This document shows, in pieces, positions 7,601 to 57,843 of a DNA stretch of 64,000 nucleotides. A program made the position numbers and the translations under genes. A model generated the notes under the pieces. The model ran no database searches. It worked only from the letters and a program-made list of their open reading frames with translations, and was not told the origin of the DNA. This stretch comes from a bacterium (lineage in GTDB: Bacteria; Planctomycetota; Planctomycetia; Planctomycetales; Planctomycetaceae), in contig WGME01000008.1 in the NCBI GenBank assembly GCA_016125225.1, positions 62,001 through 126,000 on the forward strand, written 5' to 3'. Numbering within the stretch: the first letter of the stretch is position 1; each line of letters starts with the position of its first letter.

Positions 7601-10600
7601 ATGGTGACCAGCAAGGACGCTTCGGAGAGCACTGCCACCGAGATTCCCAGTGCTGGCAATCCGCTTTGGTATAAAGATGCCGTCATTTACCAGATTCACG
7701 TACGTGCCTATCACGACGCGAACGGAGATGGCATCGGCGATTTTGCGGGTCTGACGCAGAAGCTCGACTACATCCAAAGTCTGGGCGTGAACACCATCTG
7801 GCTGTTGCCCTTTTTCCTTTCGCCCTTGCGCGACGATGGATACGACATCGCCGACTACACTCGCCTGAACCCGGCCTATGGCACGCTGAAGGACTTCGAG
7901 AAGTTCCTGGAAGAAGCCCATCGCCGCGATCTGCGGGTGATCACTGAAATGGTGATGAATCATACGTCTGATCAGCACGCCTGGTTTCAGCAATCACGCC
8001 GTGCTAAGCCGGGCAGCAAATGGCGGGACTTCTATGTCTGGAGTGATAACGAAGATCGCTACAGCGAAACCCGCATCATCTTTCAAGACTTCGAACGTTC
8101 GAACTGGACATGGGACCCCGTTGCCAATGCCTACTATTGGCACCGCTTTTACAGCCATCAACCCGACTTGAACTTCGACAATCCCGATGTTCACACGGCC
8201 ATGTTCGAAGCCATCGATTTCTGGTTCGATAAAGGGGTCGATGGCGTCCGGCTCGACGCGATTCCGTATCTGTATGAACGCGAAGGGACCAACTGCGAAA
8301 ACCTGCCGGAAACGCATGCCTTCATCAAGCAACTTCGGAAGCATATCGACGAGAAATACGTCGATAAAATGCTGCTTGCGGAAGCGAACCAATGGCCCGA
8401 AGATGCCGCCGCCTATTTCGGTGACGGTGACGAGAGCCATATGAATTTTCATTTCCCGTTGATGCCGCGGCTGTTCATGGCCGTGGAGCGGGAAGACCGG
8501 TTTCCCATCATCGATATTCTGGAACAGACGCCGAAGATTCCGGACAATTGCCAGTGGGGCGTCTTCCTGCGCAATCACGATGAACTCACATTGGAAATGG
8601 TCACCGACGAAGAGCGCGACTATATGTATCGCGCGTATGCGGAAGATCCCCGCGCCCGCATCAATCTTGGTATCCGTCGTCGTCTGGCGCCTCTGATGCG
8701 TGACGATCGCCGCAAGATCGAGTTGATGAATGGTCTGCTGCTATCGATGCCCGGTTCGCCGGTGATCTATTACGGTGATGAAATCGCGATGGGTGATAAC
8801 ATTTATCTCGGCGATCGCGATGCCGTGCGGACACCGATGCAGTGGAACGATGACCGGAATGCCGGGTTTTCCCGGGCCAATCCGCAGCGGTTATTCTTGC
8901 CGGTCATTATCGACACTCTGTACCACTATGCCTCGCGGAATGTGGAGGTCGAACAAAGCCGCCCGGCTTCAATGTTATGGTGGATGCGGCGGATCATCGG
9001 TCTGCGGAAGCAGCACCCGGCATTCGGACGCGGGACCATCGAATTCCTGACGCCGGACAACGGAAAAATTCTGGCTTATCTCCGAGAATCGAGCGAAGAA
9101 ACGGTCCTCGTCGTCGTGAATCTCTCGCGGTCGGTGCAGTGTGCTGAACTCGATTTGTCGCGGTTTCGTGGTCGTGTCCCGGTGGAACTGTTTGCCGAAT
9201 CGCGATTTCCCATGATTGGCGAGTTACCCTACTTCCTCACATTGGGGCCCTATGGGTTCTATTGGTTTCGCATCGAAGGCATCAGCAGCGACAGCAGCAC
9301 CATTTCCACTCCGTTGCCGGAATTCAAAGTGGTTTCCCGGTGGGACGAGATCTTTGAAGGCAAGCTGTTGCGACGCCTGGAATCTCTGTTGCCTGGCTAT
9401 CTGAAACAGCAGCGGTGGTTCGCTGGCAAAGCCCGGGTGATGCAACGGACCAATGTCATCGATGTTTTAACGATCGAGGATGTGCCCGCATTAACGGCGG
9501 CCGTCAAACGCTTCGGCAGCACCAACCCCGAGTCCCTCGCCGAAACACGGGTTCTGTTCGTACAGGTCGAGTACGCGGAAGGTGATCCCGATGTCTATCT
9601 GCTGCCCGTCGTCTTCGCGCAGGGACACCAGAGCGAGAACATCGTCGCAGACCGCCCGTCCGCGGGGCTACTGACAGTTCAGCGATCACGCGACGGCGGC
9701 TTGGCAACGTTATGTGACACCACCTATGAATGCGAATTCTGGTTACTGCTGTTCGATGCACTGGCCCGACAGCAAGCCATTACCGGACAGCGTGGCGTTC
9801 TGGAAGCGGTCCAAACCTCGGCCTGCCAGACTTTGTCTACCGATCTGAAACTGGAAGCGACCGTCCACGGTGGAGAGCAGAGCAATACGTCGGCGATCCT
9901 GGGTCGGCAACTGATTCTCAAGCTGATCCGCCGCTTAAACGAAGGCGAAAATCCCGACTTCGAAATTGGTCGCTTCTTGACCGAACGTACGGAACTGCGT
10001 TGCGTGCCGCGCGTCGCCGGGGCGCTTGAGTATCGATTCCGGGAAGGGAAGCGGTACACGATCGCGGTGGTGCACGAATTCGTCCCGAACCAGGGAGATG
10101 CCTGGGTTTATACCCTCGACGAACTGGGACGTTTTCTGGAACGTGTAGAAACGGAAATCACAGGCCCTCCCAGTACGACGGAATTGCCACTGAAAGCGTC
10201 ACCAGTAACCCTGTCGACTCTCGAAGTTCCCCCCAAAGTTCAGGAGTTGATCGGTCCTTATCTGCATGCGGCCCAGTTACTCGGGGAACGCACGGCGGAA
10301 ATGCATCTGGCTTTGGCAAGTGGCACCGAGACGGCATTTGCTCCCGAAGCCTTTTCCAAGCTGTACCAGCGCAGTCTCTACCAGGCAATGCGAGCCGAAG
10401 CCCGCAAAATGTTCACCTTGCTCCGGCGTCGTCAGAAAACTCTGCCGGGTGAAGCGATGACGTTGGCCGAACAGTTACTGTCTCGTGAAGCCGATCTGCT
10501 CGATCGTTATTCTCGCATTCTCAATGAGCGGATCACCGCCCTGCGAGCCCGGTGCCACGGCGACTACCATCTGGGCCAGGTGCTGTATACCGGCAAGGAT

Positions 10601-53505: not shown

Positions 53506-54321
53506 TCACTTCACTCGTCCCATGACAAATTCGAAGGCTTCAACCGCATCGGCGTAAGTCGTGGAATGGCCGCCTTCGGGACGGTCAATTAACAGAACGG
53601 GACGATCCAGTTTTTTGAGCACGGCCGCCAGACGCTGCACGCTTTGCGGCGGAACGACGGCGTCATTTCCTCCAACAGTCATCGCCACCGGCATGGTGAA
53701 CCGTTCCGGCCAATACTCAGCGCTGCGCTTCTTGTATTCTCCAGCAAGGTCGGCTTTCGCCCCGCCGAAGGAGGCCGAGATGGCATCCTGAAATCGCTCA
53801 TACTCCAGATGATTCGCTGTTCCGTTCATGGACACAACGCCATCGGTCAGCTCCGGGTGCAAGGCCGCAAATGTCAAAGCGGATGATCCACCCATGGAAG
53901 CGCCGGAAATAATGATCTTTCGCACTGGGTAGCGCCGCTTGAGATCTTGGATCACCTGGACCAGATCGGCCTCGGCGGCTGGCCCCATCCAGGATGTTTT
54001 CGCCCGGTAGTCGGGAGAAACGTACAGCATGCGATACTTCTTCGCGGTGTCCCGTGCCGCTTTCGCTTCCGCGAAATCGCCTTTGGCAAACTGCCAACGA
54101 TCGCTGCCATGCCCATGCAGAGCGATGAGGAGATCGACGTGATCGGCAGGCTGATCCTCGGGAAGCAGCAAGACGTATCGCTGCTCGGTTTGATCGATTT
54201 CTGCCGTGAAGGCGACGTCTTGCAGCTCGCCACCAATTGCCGCCACTGCGCGTGTAGCAATCATGCTGAGCGATGCAGCGATCACCAGAAACAATGCACG
54301 GCTTCGGTTCCACGATTTCAT
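53506..54321 (-). CDS. Secreted alpha/beta-hydrolase (esterase)
   Basis: The 271-residue protein has a signal peptide (FLVIAASLSMIATRAVAA), a nucleophile elbow SGASMGGS, an acid GGNDAVVP, and a base GGHSTTY, giving Ser-Asp-His in order. The fold is similar to phospholipase/carboxylesterase and PHB depolymerase-type proteins. It lies just after the initiator tRNA and before an area of mobile-element remains. The substrate is unknown. ATG 54321 is chosen; ATG 54333 is possible. Confidence 0.87.
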   Translation of the reverse strand: MKSWNRSRALFLVIAASLSMIATRAVAAIGGELQDVAFTAEIDQTEQRYVLLLPEDQPADHVDLLIALHGHGSDRWQFAKGDFAEAKAARDTAKKYRMLYVSPDYRAKTSWMGPAAEADLVQVIQDLKRRYPVRKIIISGASMGGSSALTFAALHPELTDGVVSMNGTANHLEYERFQDAISASFGGAKADLAGEYKKRSAEYWPERFTMPVAMTVGGNDAVVPPQSVQRLAAVLKKLDRPVLLIDRPEGGHSTTYADAVEAFEFVMGRVK

Positions 54322-54396
54322 AGACGATTCCATCTCCCGCAGGATGTAACGAATGTGCAACTCCAATCAGAATAAAGTAGTCACGACAATACCCCA

Positions 54397-54503
54397 ATGG
54401 CCAAGATTTTCCACCTTCTGCCGCGCTGATCGCTTCCGGAACCGATCGCTAACTGGCGAAGTATGTCCAGTTCCTGAAGGAAGAGAACAAGATCCTTCGC
54501 AGC
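54397..54503 (+). pseudogene. Remnant of transposase N-terminus with two frameshifts
   Basis: Read in order, three frames spell MAKIFHLLPR (from 54397), ADRFRNRS (from about 54425), and LAKYVQFLKEENKILRS (from 54453). Together this resembles the first 35 or so residues of the IS transposases with a C-terminal integrase core. Each step is a single frameshift and the ORF then ends at a short inverted-repeat element. It is a decayed copy; the rest of the transposase is absent. Confidence 0.7.
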
Positions 54504-54511
54504 CCGGCAGT

Positions 54512-54624
54512 GTGGCTGGGGTCGCAGCCCCCAGTAAATCTGACAAGATGCCCGGGGGCAGATAGTCTGTCACATGGAATTGACAGGCTGAAAACAATCC
54601 GTGAGACCATCTGACCCCGGCCAC
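54512..54624. repeat. 113-bp element with imperfect 12-bp terminal inverted repeats
   Basis: GTGGCTGGGGTC at 54512-54523 is matched by GACCCCGGCCAC at 54613-54624 (11 of 12 pair). An inner CTGGGG/CCCCAG palindrome lies near the left end. It abuts the transposase remnant, which it may have interrupted. A similar short motif (TTAAATCTGAC, 53385 region) lies after the tRNA and may be another remnant. Confidence 0.5.
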
Positions 54625-54760
54625 CCCGCCGCGCAAGAAATGTTCGGTCAATTCGCGCAGTAAAATTCGACGCATCCCGCTGAGCCTGTTGGGATTGACG
54701 GGCGAAATCCGCCGGGTATTCTCAACGCAGTTCGTTCTGATAATCACAAGTTAGGCGACT

Positions 54761-55102
54761 ATGAATGCGCACTCAGAAAATGAGAGTTGGGTTGTGAGGA
54801 GAGGCGGACAGGTCGTCGAGAAGAAGGCGCAGGTTGGTGTGGCTGGATTGAGCGACTGGGAGCGGTTGGTCTATTGTCTCTGGGTTGCCGATTACATGAT
54901 GCGCAACGCCGGTGACTTTGCTAACGCTGTGGACATGTATCCGACCTTTCAGAGCGACGCCCGACAGTTTGCGCAGCGTCTTGGCCTCACTGCGACGTCC
55001 GAGGCTTTTTCACTTTCGCAGCGGAAGCTCCAGAAGGAGTATTTCGACCGCTTCCAGCAGATTTGCGATGAGATCAAGAGTATTGACCCAGCAGTCGCCT
55101 AA
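54761..55102 (+). CDS. Integron-cassette gene, unknown function
   Basis: The 113-residue protein is not recognised. It looks soluble and helical (LSDWERLVYCLWVADYMMRNA; SQRKLQKEYFDRFQQICDEIK). It starts 11 bases after a GTTAGGC core site (54750-54756), and its stop codon lies inside the R'' core of a downstream attC. That is the arrangement of a mobile gene cassette. There is no promoter of its own visible, as usual for cassettes. The function is unknown. Confidence 0.72.
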   Translation: MNAHSENESWVVRRGGQVVEKKAQVGVAGLSDWERLVYCLWVADYMMRNAGDFANAVDMYPTFQSDARQFAQRLGLTATSEAFSLSQRKLQKEYFDRFQQICDEIKSIDPAVA

Positions 55103-55218
55103 CCATGCGCTCCAGCGAACGGCCTCTGCGCCGTCCGTTCGAGCGTCGCGGGAGTTCGCGAGCGCACCGTGCGCTCCACCCGCGCGCCGAGGCCGTCGCT
55201 GAGCTTAGGGCGTTAGGG
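55097..55218 (+). repeat. attC recombination site of an integron gene cassette
   Basis: R'' GCCTAAC (55097-55103) pairs with R' GTTAGGG (55212-55218) over six bases. L'' GCTCCAGCG (55109-55117) pairs with L' CGCTGAGC (55197-55204), with one extrahelical C; ACGGC (55119-55123) pairs with GCCGT (55192-55196), with an extra A. This R/L box order with extrahelical bases and a central variable part is the attC structure. The total of 122 bp is in the usual range. No integrase is in the window. Confidence 0.8.
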
Positions 55219-55236: not shown

Positions 55237-55628
55237 ATGTCAGCCATCCCAACAAAACATTATGGAGCGGCGGCGGTCGGAAGCACCTGTTGTTTCGATA
55301 TCGAGGTTGATGAGGCACTCGATGATCCCAACGACTTGCAGATGAGCATCGCCGCACGCAGTTGGTCATTCCGCTTCCGTTTGTCCGCACGGGCCGAAGT
55401 GTCACGGATGCTATTTTTCTTCGTGAGCACACCGGCTGTCTTGTGTTCTCCGAAATTGTCGTCGGCTCGCTTCATGGTGCATCCGTGTTGCTCGTGAAGG
55501 ACGGGGAGTTTGCCAACAGGTTTTGGCTTCGAGCGCGTGGAGAGGATTCCATGGTTGAGTTCGTGCTCGCAGCCGATGACCTCACCCAGTTTACTGATGC
55601 AGTTGCTCAGACCGTTCAGGCTCTATGA
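55237..55628 (+). pseudogene. Probable second cassette gene, frameshifted
   Basis: After the attC site an ATG at 55237 opens a frame that reads plausibly (TCCFDIEVDEALDDPNDLQMSIAARS), then becomes non-protein-like and stops at 55497. From about 55360 a different frame reads well to 55628 (FLREHTGCLVFSEIVVGSLH; VLAADDLTQFTDAVAQTVQAL). A one-base frameshift near 55345-55365 would join them into a protein of about 130 residues. Sequencing error is the alternative. No function is recognised. Confidence 0.45.
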
Positions 55629-55767: not shown

Positions 55768-57843
55768 ATGAGACCGACCTTGGCGCTTTTGATCGGGTTC
55801 TGGCTGTTGCCGTCTTCTGTGTTCGCGGTGGATTACGAACACGACGTGCGGACCCTGCTTAAGGAGCGTTGTATCTCTTGTCATGGCGCGGTCAAGCAGG
55901 AGGCCGACCTGCGGCTCGATGCGGGGGCCCTGATCCTGAAAGGGGGCGGGCAACCGGTGGTGATGCCCGGCAACAGTGGCGACAGCCTGCTGATTCAACG
56001 TGTCCTCGCTGAAGATGAATCGGAGCGGATGCCTCCGGAAGGAGCACGGCTCTCGCCCGATCAAATCGCGGTACTGCGTGCCTGGATCGATCGCGGTGCC
56101 ATCTACCCGACCGACGAAATCATTCCACCACGTCCGGCCGATCATTGGTCATTCCAACCCATTCAGCGACCTGATGTGCCTGCGGCGATGCAGTCCAGTT
56201 GGGTACGTAACGAAATCGATGCCTTCGTGCTGGCCGATCTGGAACGGCGGAATCTCGCCCCGGAACCGGCGGCATCGCCGACGGCGTTACTGCGGCGGGT
56301 CACGCTCGATCTGATCGGCTTGCCTCCGACTTTGGCGGAACAACAGGCCTTCAGCGAACAGCCCGATTTGACGGCGGTCATCGAGTCTCTGCTACAGCGG
56401 CCGGAGTATGGCGAACGCTGGGGACGCCACTGGCTCGATGTGGTGCGTTATGCCGACAGCAATGGCTACGAACGCGATGCCGAGAAGCCGTTTGTCTGGC
56501 GGTATCGCGATTATGTGATCGAATCCTTGAACCAGGACAAGCCGTTTGACCGGTTCATCATGGAGCAGTTGGCGGGCGATGAGTTGCCCGATCGCACGTT
56601 GGAATCGCGGATTGCCACGGGGTTCCTGCGGTTGGGACATTGGGATGATGAACCCGCCGATCCGCAGGCCGATCGTTATGACCAGCTAGATGACATCGTC
56701 AGCACGACAGGGCAGGCGTTTCTTGGTCTCACGATTGGATGTGCCCGCTGTCACGATCACAAGTTTGAACCGCTATCGGCCCGTGACTATTACAGTCTGG
56801 TGGCGGTCTTCAATCCGCTGGAACGCCCACAGGCCGGCCGCACCGAGAAGACCGTGATGGTTGACGACGTGGAGATTTATGCGTGGCGAGAGCCAGACGC
56901 CATCGCACCGGAAACGTATCTGTTGAAACGTGGTTCGCCGACCAACCCGGGTGAACGTGTGACACCGGCGGTCCCGGCGATTCTGGTCGCACATCAACCC
57001 GCGTTTGCTGAACCCGACGAACAAACGTCTCAGCGTCGTTTGAGTTTGGCCCGCTGGATCGCCAGTGCGGAGAATCCGCTGACAGCACGGGTTCTGGTGA
57101 ATCGCGTCTGGCAGCAGCATTTCGGGCAGGGCTTAGTCACCACGGCCAATGATTTCGGCCTCATGGGTTCCGTCCCCAGTCATCCGGAGTTGCTCGATTG
57201 GCTGGCCCACTGGTTCATGCACGATGCGGGCTGGTCGCTGAAAAAACTTCATCGCCTGATCCTCACCAGTCAGACCTGGCAACAGGCGAAGACACCGAAT
57301 TCGCTGGTGCGTTATCGTCGGTTGGAAGTCGAAGCCATTCGCGATTCCATGCTCGCCGTCAGTGGCCAGTTGAACCCGCAGCGTTCGGGACCGGCCTTCA
57401 AACCACCAATTCCAGCCGCTGCCTTGGAAGCCAACAGCGACAAAGAGAAAGTCTGGCAGGCCTCGCCGGAACCCGAGGCGTCGCGTCGTAGTGTCTATGC
57501 TTTCATCAAGCGGGGATTGGTGGTCCCTCTTTTTGAATCGCTCGATCTCGCCGATACTGTCAGCAGTTGTCCGCAACGGCAGGTCACCACCGTGGCACCG
57601 CAAGCTCTCACGCTGTTCAACGGTGAGTTCTCTATCCAGCAGGCGACCCACTTTGCTGAGCGTTTGCGCCGGGAAGCAGGAGATGATCCTATCGCACAAA
57701 TCCAACGGGCCTGGCAACTGGCACTCTGCCGTGAACCCAGTTCCGCCGAGCAGGAACTGATGCAGCAGTTCTTGCGGGAAGAGTCGCTGGAGCAAATGTG
57801 TCGCGTGGTCTTGAATCTGAATGAGTTCGTCTACCCGGAGTGA
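55768..57843 (+). CDS. Planctomycete DUF1549/DUF1553 cytochrome c-domain protein
   Basis: The 691-residue protein has a signal peptide (FWLLPSSVFA), a cytochrome c-type domain with the haem motif CISCH, then DUF1549 (GRHWLDVVRYADSNGYERD) and DUF1553 (NPLTARVLVNRVWQQHFG) domains. These proteins are secreted and redox-active and are found almost only in Planctomycetota and Verrucomicrobiota, usually with a DUF1501 partner, which follows directly. The stop at 57843 precedes the partner start by two bases. A role in polysaccharide catabolism is suspected from family context. Confidence 0.93.
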   Translation: MRPTLALLIGFWLLPSSVFAVDYEHDVRTLLKERCISCHGAVKQEADLRLDAGALILKGGGQPVVMPGNSGDSLLIQRVLAEDESERMPPEGARLSPDQIAVLRAWIDRGAIYPTDEIIPPRPADHWSFQPIQRPDVPAAMQSSWVRNEIDAFVLADLERRNLAPEPAASPTALLRRVTLDLIGLPPTLAEQQAFSEQPDLTAVIESLLQRPEYGERWGRHWLDVVRYADSNGYERDAEKPFVWRYRDYVIESLNQDKPFDRFIMEQLAGDELPDRTLESRIATGFLRLGHWDDEPADPQADRYDQLDDIVSTTGQAFLGLTIGCARCHDHKFEPLSARDYYSLVAVFNPLERPQAGRTEKTVMVDDVEIYAWREPDAIAPETYLLKRGSPTNPGERVTPAVPAILVAHQPAFAEPDEQTSQRRLSLARWIASAENPLTARVLVNRVWQQHFGQGLVTTANDFGLMGSVPSHPELLDWLAHWFMHDAGWSLKKLHRLILTSQTWQQAKTPNSLVRYRRLEVEAIRDSMLAVSGQLNPQRSGPAFKPPIPAAALEANSDKEKVWQASPEPEASRRSVYAFIKRGLVVPLFESLDLADTVSSCPQRQVTTVAPQALTLFNGEFSIQQATHFAERLRREAGDDPIAQIQRAWQLALCREPSSAEQELMQQFLREESLEQMCRVVLNLNEFVYPE

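Follow-up and report, generated by a model that had tools for sequence, protein, structure and literature searches.

Probable relic of a chromosomal integron without its integrase in a planctomycete: a gene cassette behind a conserved attI-Pc leader

We describe here a gene cassette with a single attC site in a planctomycete genome, located in the 64-kb window that we analysed (the whole stretch of DNA, G000:C35:62001-126000). The cassette directly follows a leader that shares homology with the region between intI and attI in intact integrons, and no integrase gene lies beside it. In our judgement the locus probably derives from a chromosomal integron whose integrase gene has been lost and of which attI with its promoter Pc, one intact cassette and a decayed second cassette remain. 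The whole feature reaches from about 54627, where the leader starts, to about 55628, where the decayed cassette ends. Its neighbours are a hydrolase gene (53506-54330) to the left and a gene for a 691-aa product, starting at 55768, to the right. The preliminary description had seen an integron cassette lacking an integrase; this holds for the attC and for the missing adjacent intI, but the extent given was too small and the attI-Pc leader was overlooked. The parts of the locus are as follows.

54348-54504, plus strand: insertion-sequence fragment on the expected intI side, comprising the 5' end and roughly 30 initial codons (~30) of the rve-type transposase.
54613-54625, plus strand: terminal part of a REP-like repeat (GACCCCGGCCACC), immediately next to the leader; the same ending stands beside the leader in genomes G030 and G075.
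54627-54756, plus strand: predicted attI-Pc leader, delimited with nhmmer and model R2; a conserved intI-attI intergenic region of ~131 nt that lacks its intI here.
54695-54722, plus strand: putative cassette promoter Pc, TTGACG-16-TATTCT, its -35 and -10 among the best conserved leader columns.
54736-54756, plus strand: putative attI core with crossover box GTTAGGC (54750-54756), placed by the drop in conservation across 57 leaders.
54751-55212, plus strand: gene cassette 1 (TTAGGC...attC...G), whose gene recurs in G030 and in an array of a Verrucomicrobia metagenome-assembled genome (MAG).
54761-55102, plus strand: cassette open reading frame, 113 aa, with a weak DMP19-like Pfam match below threshold.
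55097-55218, plus strand: attC, 122 nt (GCCTAAC, L'' CAGCGA-A-C, L' GTCGCTG, GTTAGGG), from fold and covariance models.
55237-55628, plus strand: decayed second cassette gene with one frameshift and no attC after it.

The attC site is real and stands well beyond chance. With a folding energy of -38.7 kcal/mol (z -2.9), its bottom strand pairs the R and L boxes and leaves one base extrahelical. An attC covariance model gives the site 62.2 bits (E 1.1e-11, genome-wide), and a second model, built from 11 other attC sites with the window site left out, scores it at 43.2 bits (E 9.3e-9 over 124 kb), these E-values being rough owing to a short Infernal calibration. Across an alignment of 15 attC sites of the order, six of the seven L-helix pairs are altered on both sides, and all slid controls of the alignment collapse. 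The Rfam search returned tRNA only, and the attC covariance model found no match at E<=1 in 2 of 20 whole genomes. Much of this agrees with the preliminary description, which had correctly drawn the GTTAGGC core, the short gene (113 codons) and the attC with its R and L boxes and extrahelical base, and which had also placed the stop codon inside the attC core: TAA at 55100-55102 indeed falls within the first attC box, GCCTAAC. The genome-wide covariance search that it had set as its own refutation test was likewise passed, with a high score here and further attC sites on contig C6. Reading the locus as a chance hairpin and a chance GTTAGGC beside an ordinary small gene draws on the frequency of that motif, which by itself is uninformative: the window holds four copies against 2.8 expected, and neither GTTAGGC counts nor TAAC...GTTA spacing patterns yielded information when tried as attC evidence. 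This reading is refuted by the attC model scores, by the presence of the gene in another genus (G030), where it occupies the same position but is followed by a different attC, and by the other attC sites of the genome, and its probability is negligible.

The gene at 54761-55102 is, judging from its relatives, a mobile cassette gene. This follows from the same gene being found with a different attC in G030 and from a relative in a Verrucomicrobia array. The protein is 92% identical in G030 (ACE_PLA28, another genus), at equal distance from the attI core and with a different attC hairpin. The 70% identical relative belongs to an array with two upstream attC sites, on a contig binned as Verrucomicrobia, for which a binning error is possible. 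A 52% identical relative in G013 is followed by an apparent broken start of an attC. The AlphaFold model of the protein, made from three sequences, has a pLDDT of 89. Its match to Pfam PF14300 (DMP19) reaches 17.4 bits against a gathering score of 25, PDB sequence and fold searches with the protein and its predicted model gave nothing credible, PADLOC reported no defence match, and a plasmid collection held no relatives. Behind this cassette, the region from 55213 is a second, dead cassette. The C-terminal part of its gene (55237-55628) shares 37-41% identity with a gene of G135:C266 that has an attC on either side and belongs to a large array.

The leader identifies the place that the cassette entered. 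It was first found by blastn with the 217 bases preceding the cassette (E 4e-33 to G030, with relatives in other genera), and profile refinement narrowed it to an element of ~131 nt. The window copy, which was in the training set, scores 100 bits (E 2.7e-28) with model R2/nhmmer. Its components are the conserved box GCCGCGCAAGAATTGCTCGGTCAATTCGCGC, a promoter of the sigma-70 type (TTGAC(A/G)-16/17-TATTCT) and then AATCACAAGTTAGGC, and across 57 copies sequence conservation falls abruptly just past AAGTT. The crossover of integron recombination is at G/TT, and the observed drop matches the one expected there. In G013:C11 and G084:C222 the leader sits between a divergent full-length intI and attC-bearing cassettes, and the IntI of G013 passes TIGR02249 with 396 bits; by this placement, the leader is the intI-attI region of one integron lineage. 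Other IntI lineages in the order also have intact integrons, among them those of G047 and G150 from the same genus, and these lack the leader next to their intI. On homology, then, the window leader is a predicted attI with a Pc facing the cassettes. The preliminary description had also proposed a lone cassette at a secondary site, which would have been put there by an IntI acting in trans. The real attC and the lack of an adjacent intI would suit such an event, but the entry point is the end of the conserved attI-Pc leader of intact integrons (54627-54756) and not a random GTT. Because the leader is homologous to an intI-attI region and its conservation ends at the GTT crossover, we favour the integron relic and regard secondary-site insertion as largely refuted and very improbable.

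An intI formerly present at the window locus is suggested by the relatives of the leader. Of 170 genomes of the order, 38 carry it according to model R2, in up to eight copies per genome and mostly without an integrase; the single-contig genomes G015 (seven copies) and G024 (six copies) have no IntI at E<=1e-40. When the copies were read with their flanks by tblastn, intI or fragments of it stood beside 11 of 64, most of them truncated, deleted or interrupted, and a twelfth copy (L170) keeps the first 16 intI codons. A 17-base search located the first intI codons (ATGAAACTCCTCGAACA) beside 22 of 57 copies, at a near-constant distance of 9-15 bases (each at p<=0.01 against shuffles), with intI itself often truncated or internally deleted. 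The remaining copies, that of the window included, show no trace of intI. An attC occurs within 1.3 kb and on the expected strand in 32 of 58 copies, compared with 2 of 60 on the intI side. From their sequences, the leader copies with graded loss of intI form the series expected from integrons losing their integrase. A segment-by-segment comparison showed orphan leaders to be a little less conserved than those linked to intI over most segments, and there was no clear sign of selection on Pc only.

On the intI side of the window locus, the best match to an intI remnant next to the leader was no better than shuffles, and no orthologous locus with intI was found, the neighbouring genes being non-syntenic in the same-genus genomes G047 and G150. 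What stands there is the insertion-sequence fragment, 84% identical over ~157 nt to a copy in G047:C42 that has a 352-aa transposase open reading frame, and after it a REP-like element, GACCCC(A/G)GCCACC (together window 54348-54625). Since no trace of intI is left at the locus, an alternative has to be weighed in which the leader and first cassette arrived as one integrase-less unit, either a promoter- or attI-bearing cassette or a unit bounded by REP or insertion sequences, intI having been lost elsewhere beforehand. Such a unit would account for the REP-like ending joined to the leader, with no intI trace, in the window, in G030 and in both G075 copies, which occupy differing genomic places in three genera. 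It would also suit the three leaders found inside arrays, 77-107 bases past an attC (L161 2475-2603, L166 8110-8238 and the second leader of L157/L234), which give the order leader-cassette-attC-leader-cassette, and delta-attI cassettes are known from mobile integrons (PMC12901181). However, the REP-like ending is also seen without the leader (L082, L253), neither direct repeats nor a clean empty site supports a unit, and plain decay of intI fits many orphan leaders elsewhere. We therefore consider arrival as an integrase-less unit unlikely, if far from negligible. A broader proposition, that the leader is a semi-independent unit in the order, still carried after intI loss, with or without a cassette, as a ready promoter and landing site, seems doubtful to us; if it were true, genomes would contain several capture sites without an integrase, open to renewed use by an IntI acting in trans.

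For a relic of a chromosomal integron, the following course of events may be proposed. An intI would formerly have lain on the minus strand, to the left of 54627, and its IntI would have joined circular cassettes to attI at GTT (54750), downstream of Pc, so that the newest cassette (54751-55212) is now first and an older one (from 55213) lies behind it. The intI would then have been deleted, probably with the help of the insertion sequence whose fragment occupies its place, and the second cassette would have decayed through one frameshift and the loss of its attC. Today the putative Pc probably drives constitutive transcription of the first cassette gene, and the cassette would be immobile unless IntI were supplied in trans.

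A search of the rest of the genome for IntI and other cassettes, which had also been proposed at the outset, found no intact IntI over the cut-off, and the top partial integrase matches are Xer-like recombinases. A decayed intI with stops and frameshifts lies on C36 (G000:C36:385500-386116, L055 about 9500-10117) with its own divergent, diverged leader, and no attC was found behind it. An array of four attC sites stands on the minus strand at one end of contig C6 (G000:C6:488-2262, L151), with no leader found in the first 20 kb of that contig.

CALINs, arrays of attC sites without an integrase, are common, and their proposed origins include integron decay and off-target insertion. Integrons have been reported from Planctomycetota and Verrucomicrobiota (PMC8618304), and CALINs are regarded as partly degraded integrons (PMC9024848, PMC8618304). 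An early survey classed roughly one intI gene in three as a pseudogene (PMC2426708), and an active integrase is costly (PMC3510236). The window locus resembles a chromosomal, sedentary integron in having a predicted attI, a Pc and an attC cassette in the order and orientation of the intact examples G013:C11 and G084:C222, and is unlike one in lacking an adjacent intI and in holding one intact and one decayed cassette. It resembles a CALIN as an attC-bearing cassette without a neighbouring integrase, the loss of intI being one proposed CALIN origin (PMC9024848, PMC8618304). However, its single attC falls under the IntegronFinder 2 default of two (PMC9024848), a threshold that the four-attC array of C6 reaches, and it retains a recognisable attI and Pc, which points to a former integron and not to off-target insertion. 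Integrons with intI pseudogenes, as in Xanthomonas (PMC2426708, PMC12444791), are similar in that the integrase is inactivated while cassettes remain, whereas the window locus is wholly without intI and the decayed relative lies elsewhere in the genome. Integron decay is already known, and the novelty lies in the leader, which can serve to mark it; a lineage-wide attI-Pc leader in this role was not found in the literature searched, the coverage of which is incomplete. As the leader is recognisable after intI loss, the origin of a CALIN becomes decidable case by case from sequence, and in this one order dozens of loci are indicated as products of decay, including single-attC loci under the IntegronFinder 2 default threshold.

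Other integron loci of the order were noted in passing. G013:C11 has two tandem copies of one cassette gene (L063 323-817 and 896-1390) directly after its intact intI-attI. The planctomycete cassette array of G080:C28 (L120) is large and its attC sites are very uniform; at least 24 sites of that genome pass the E 1e-5 cut. Genome G109 by itself has eight matches to the integron integrase family, several of which are split.
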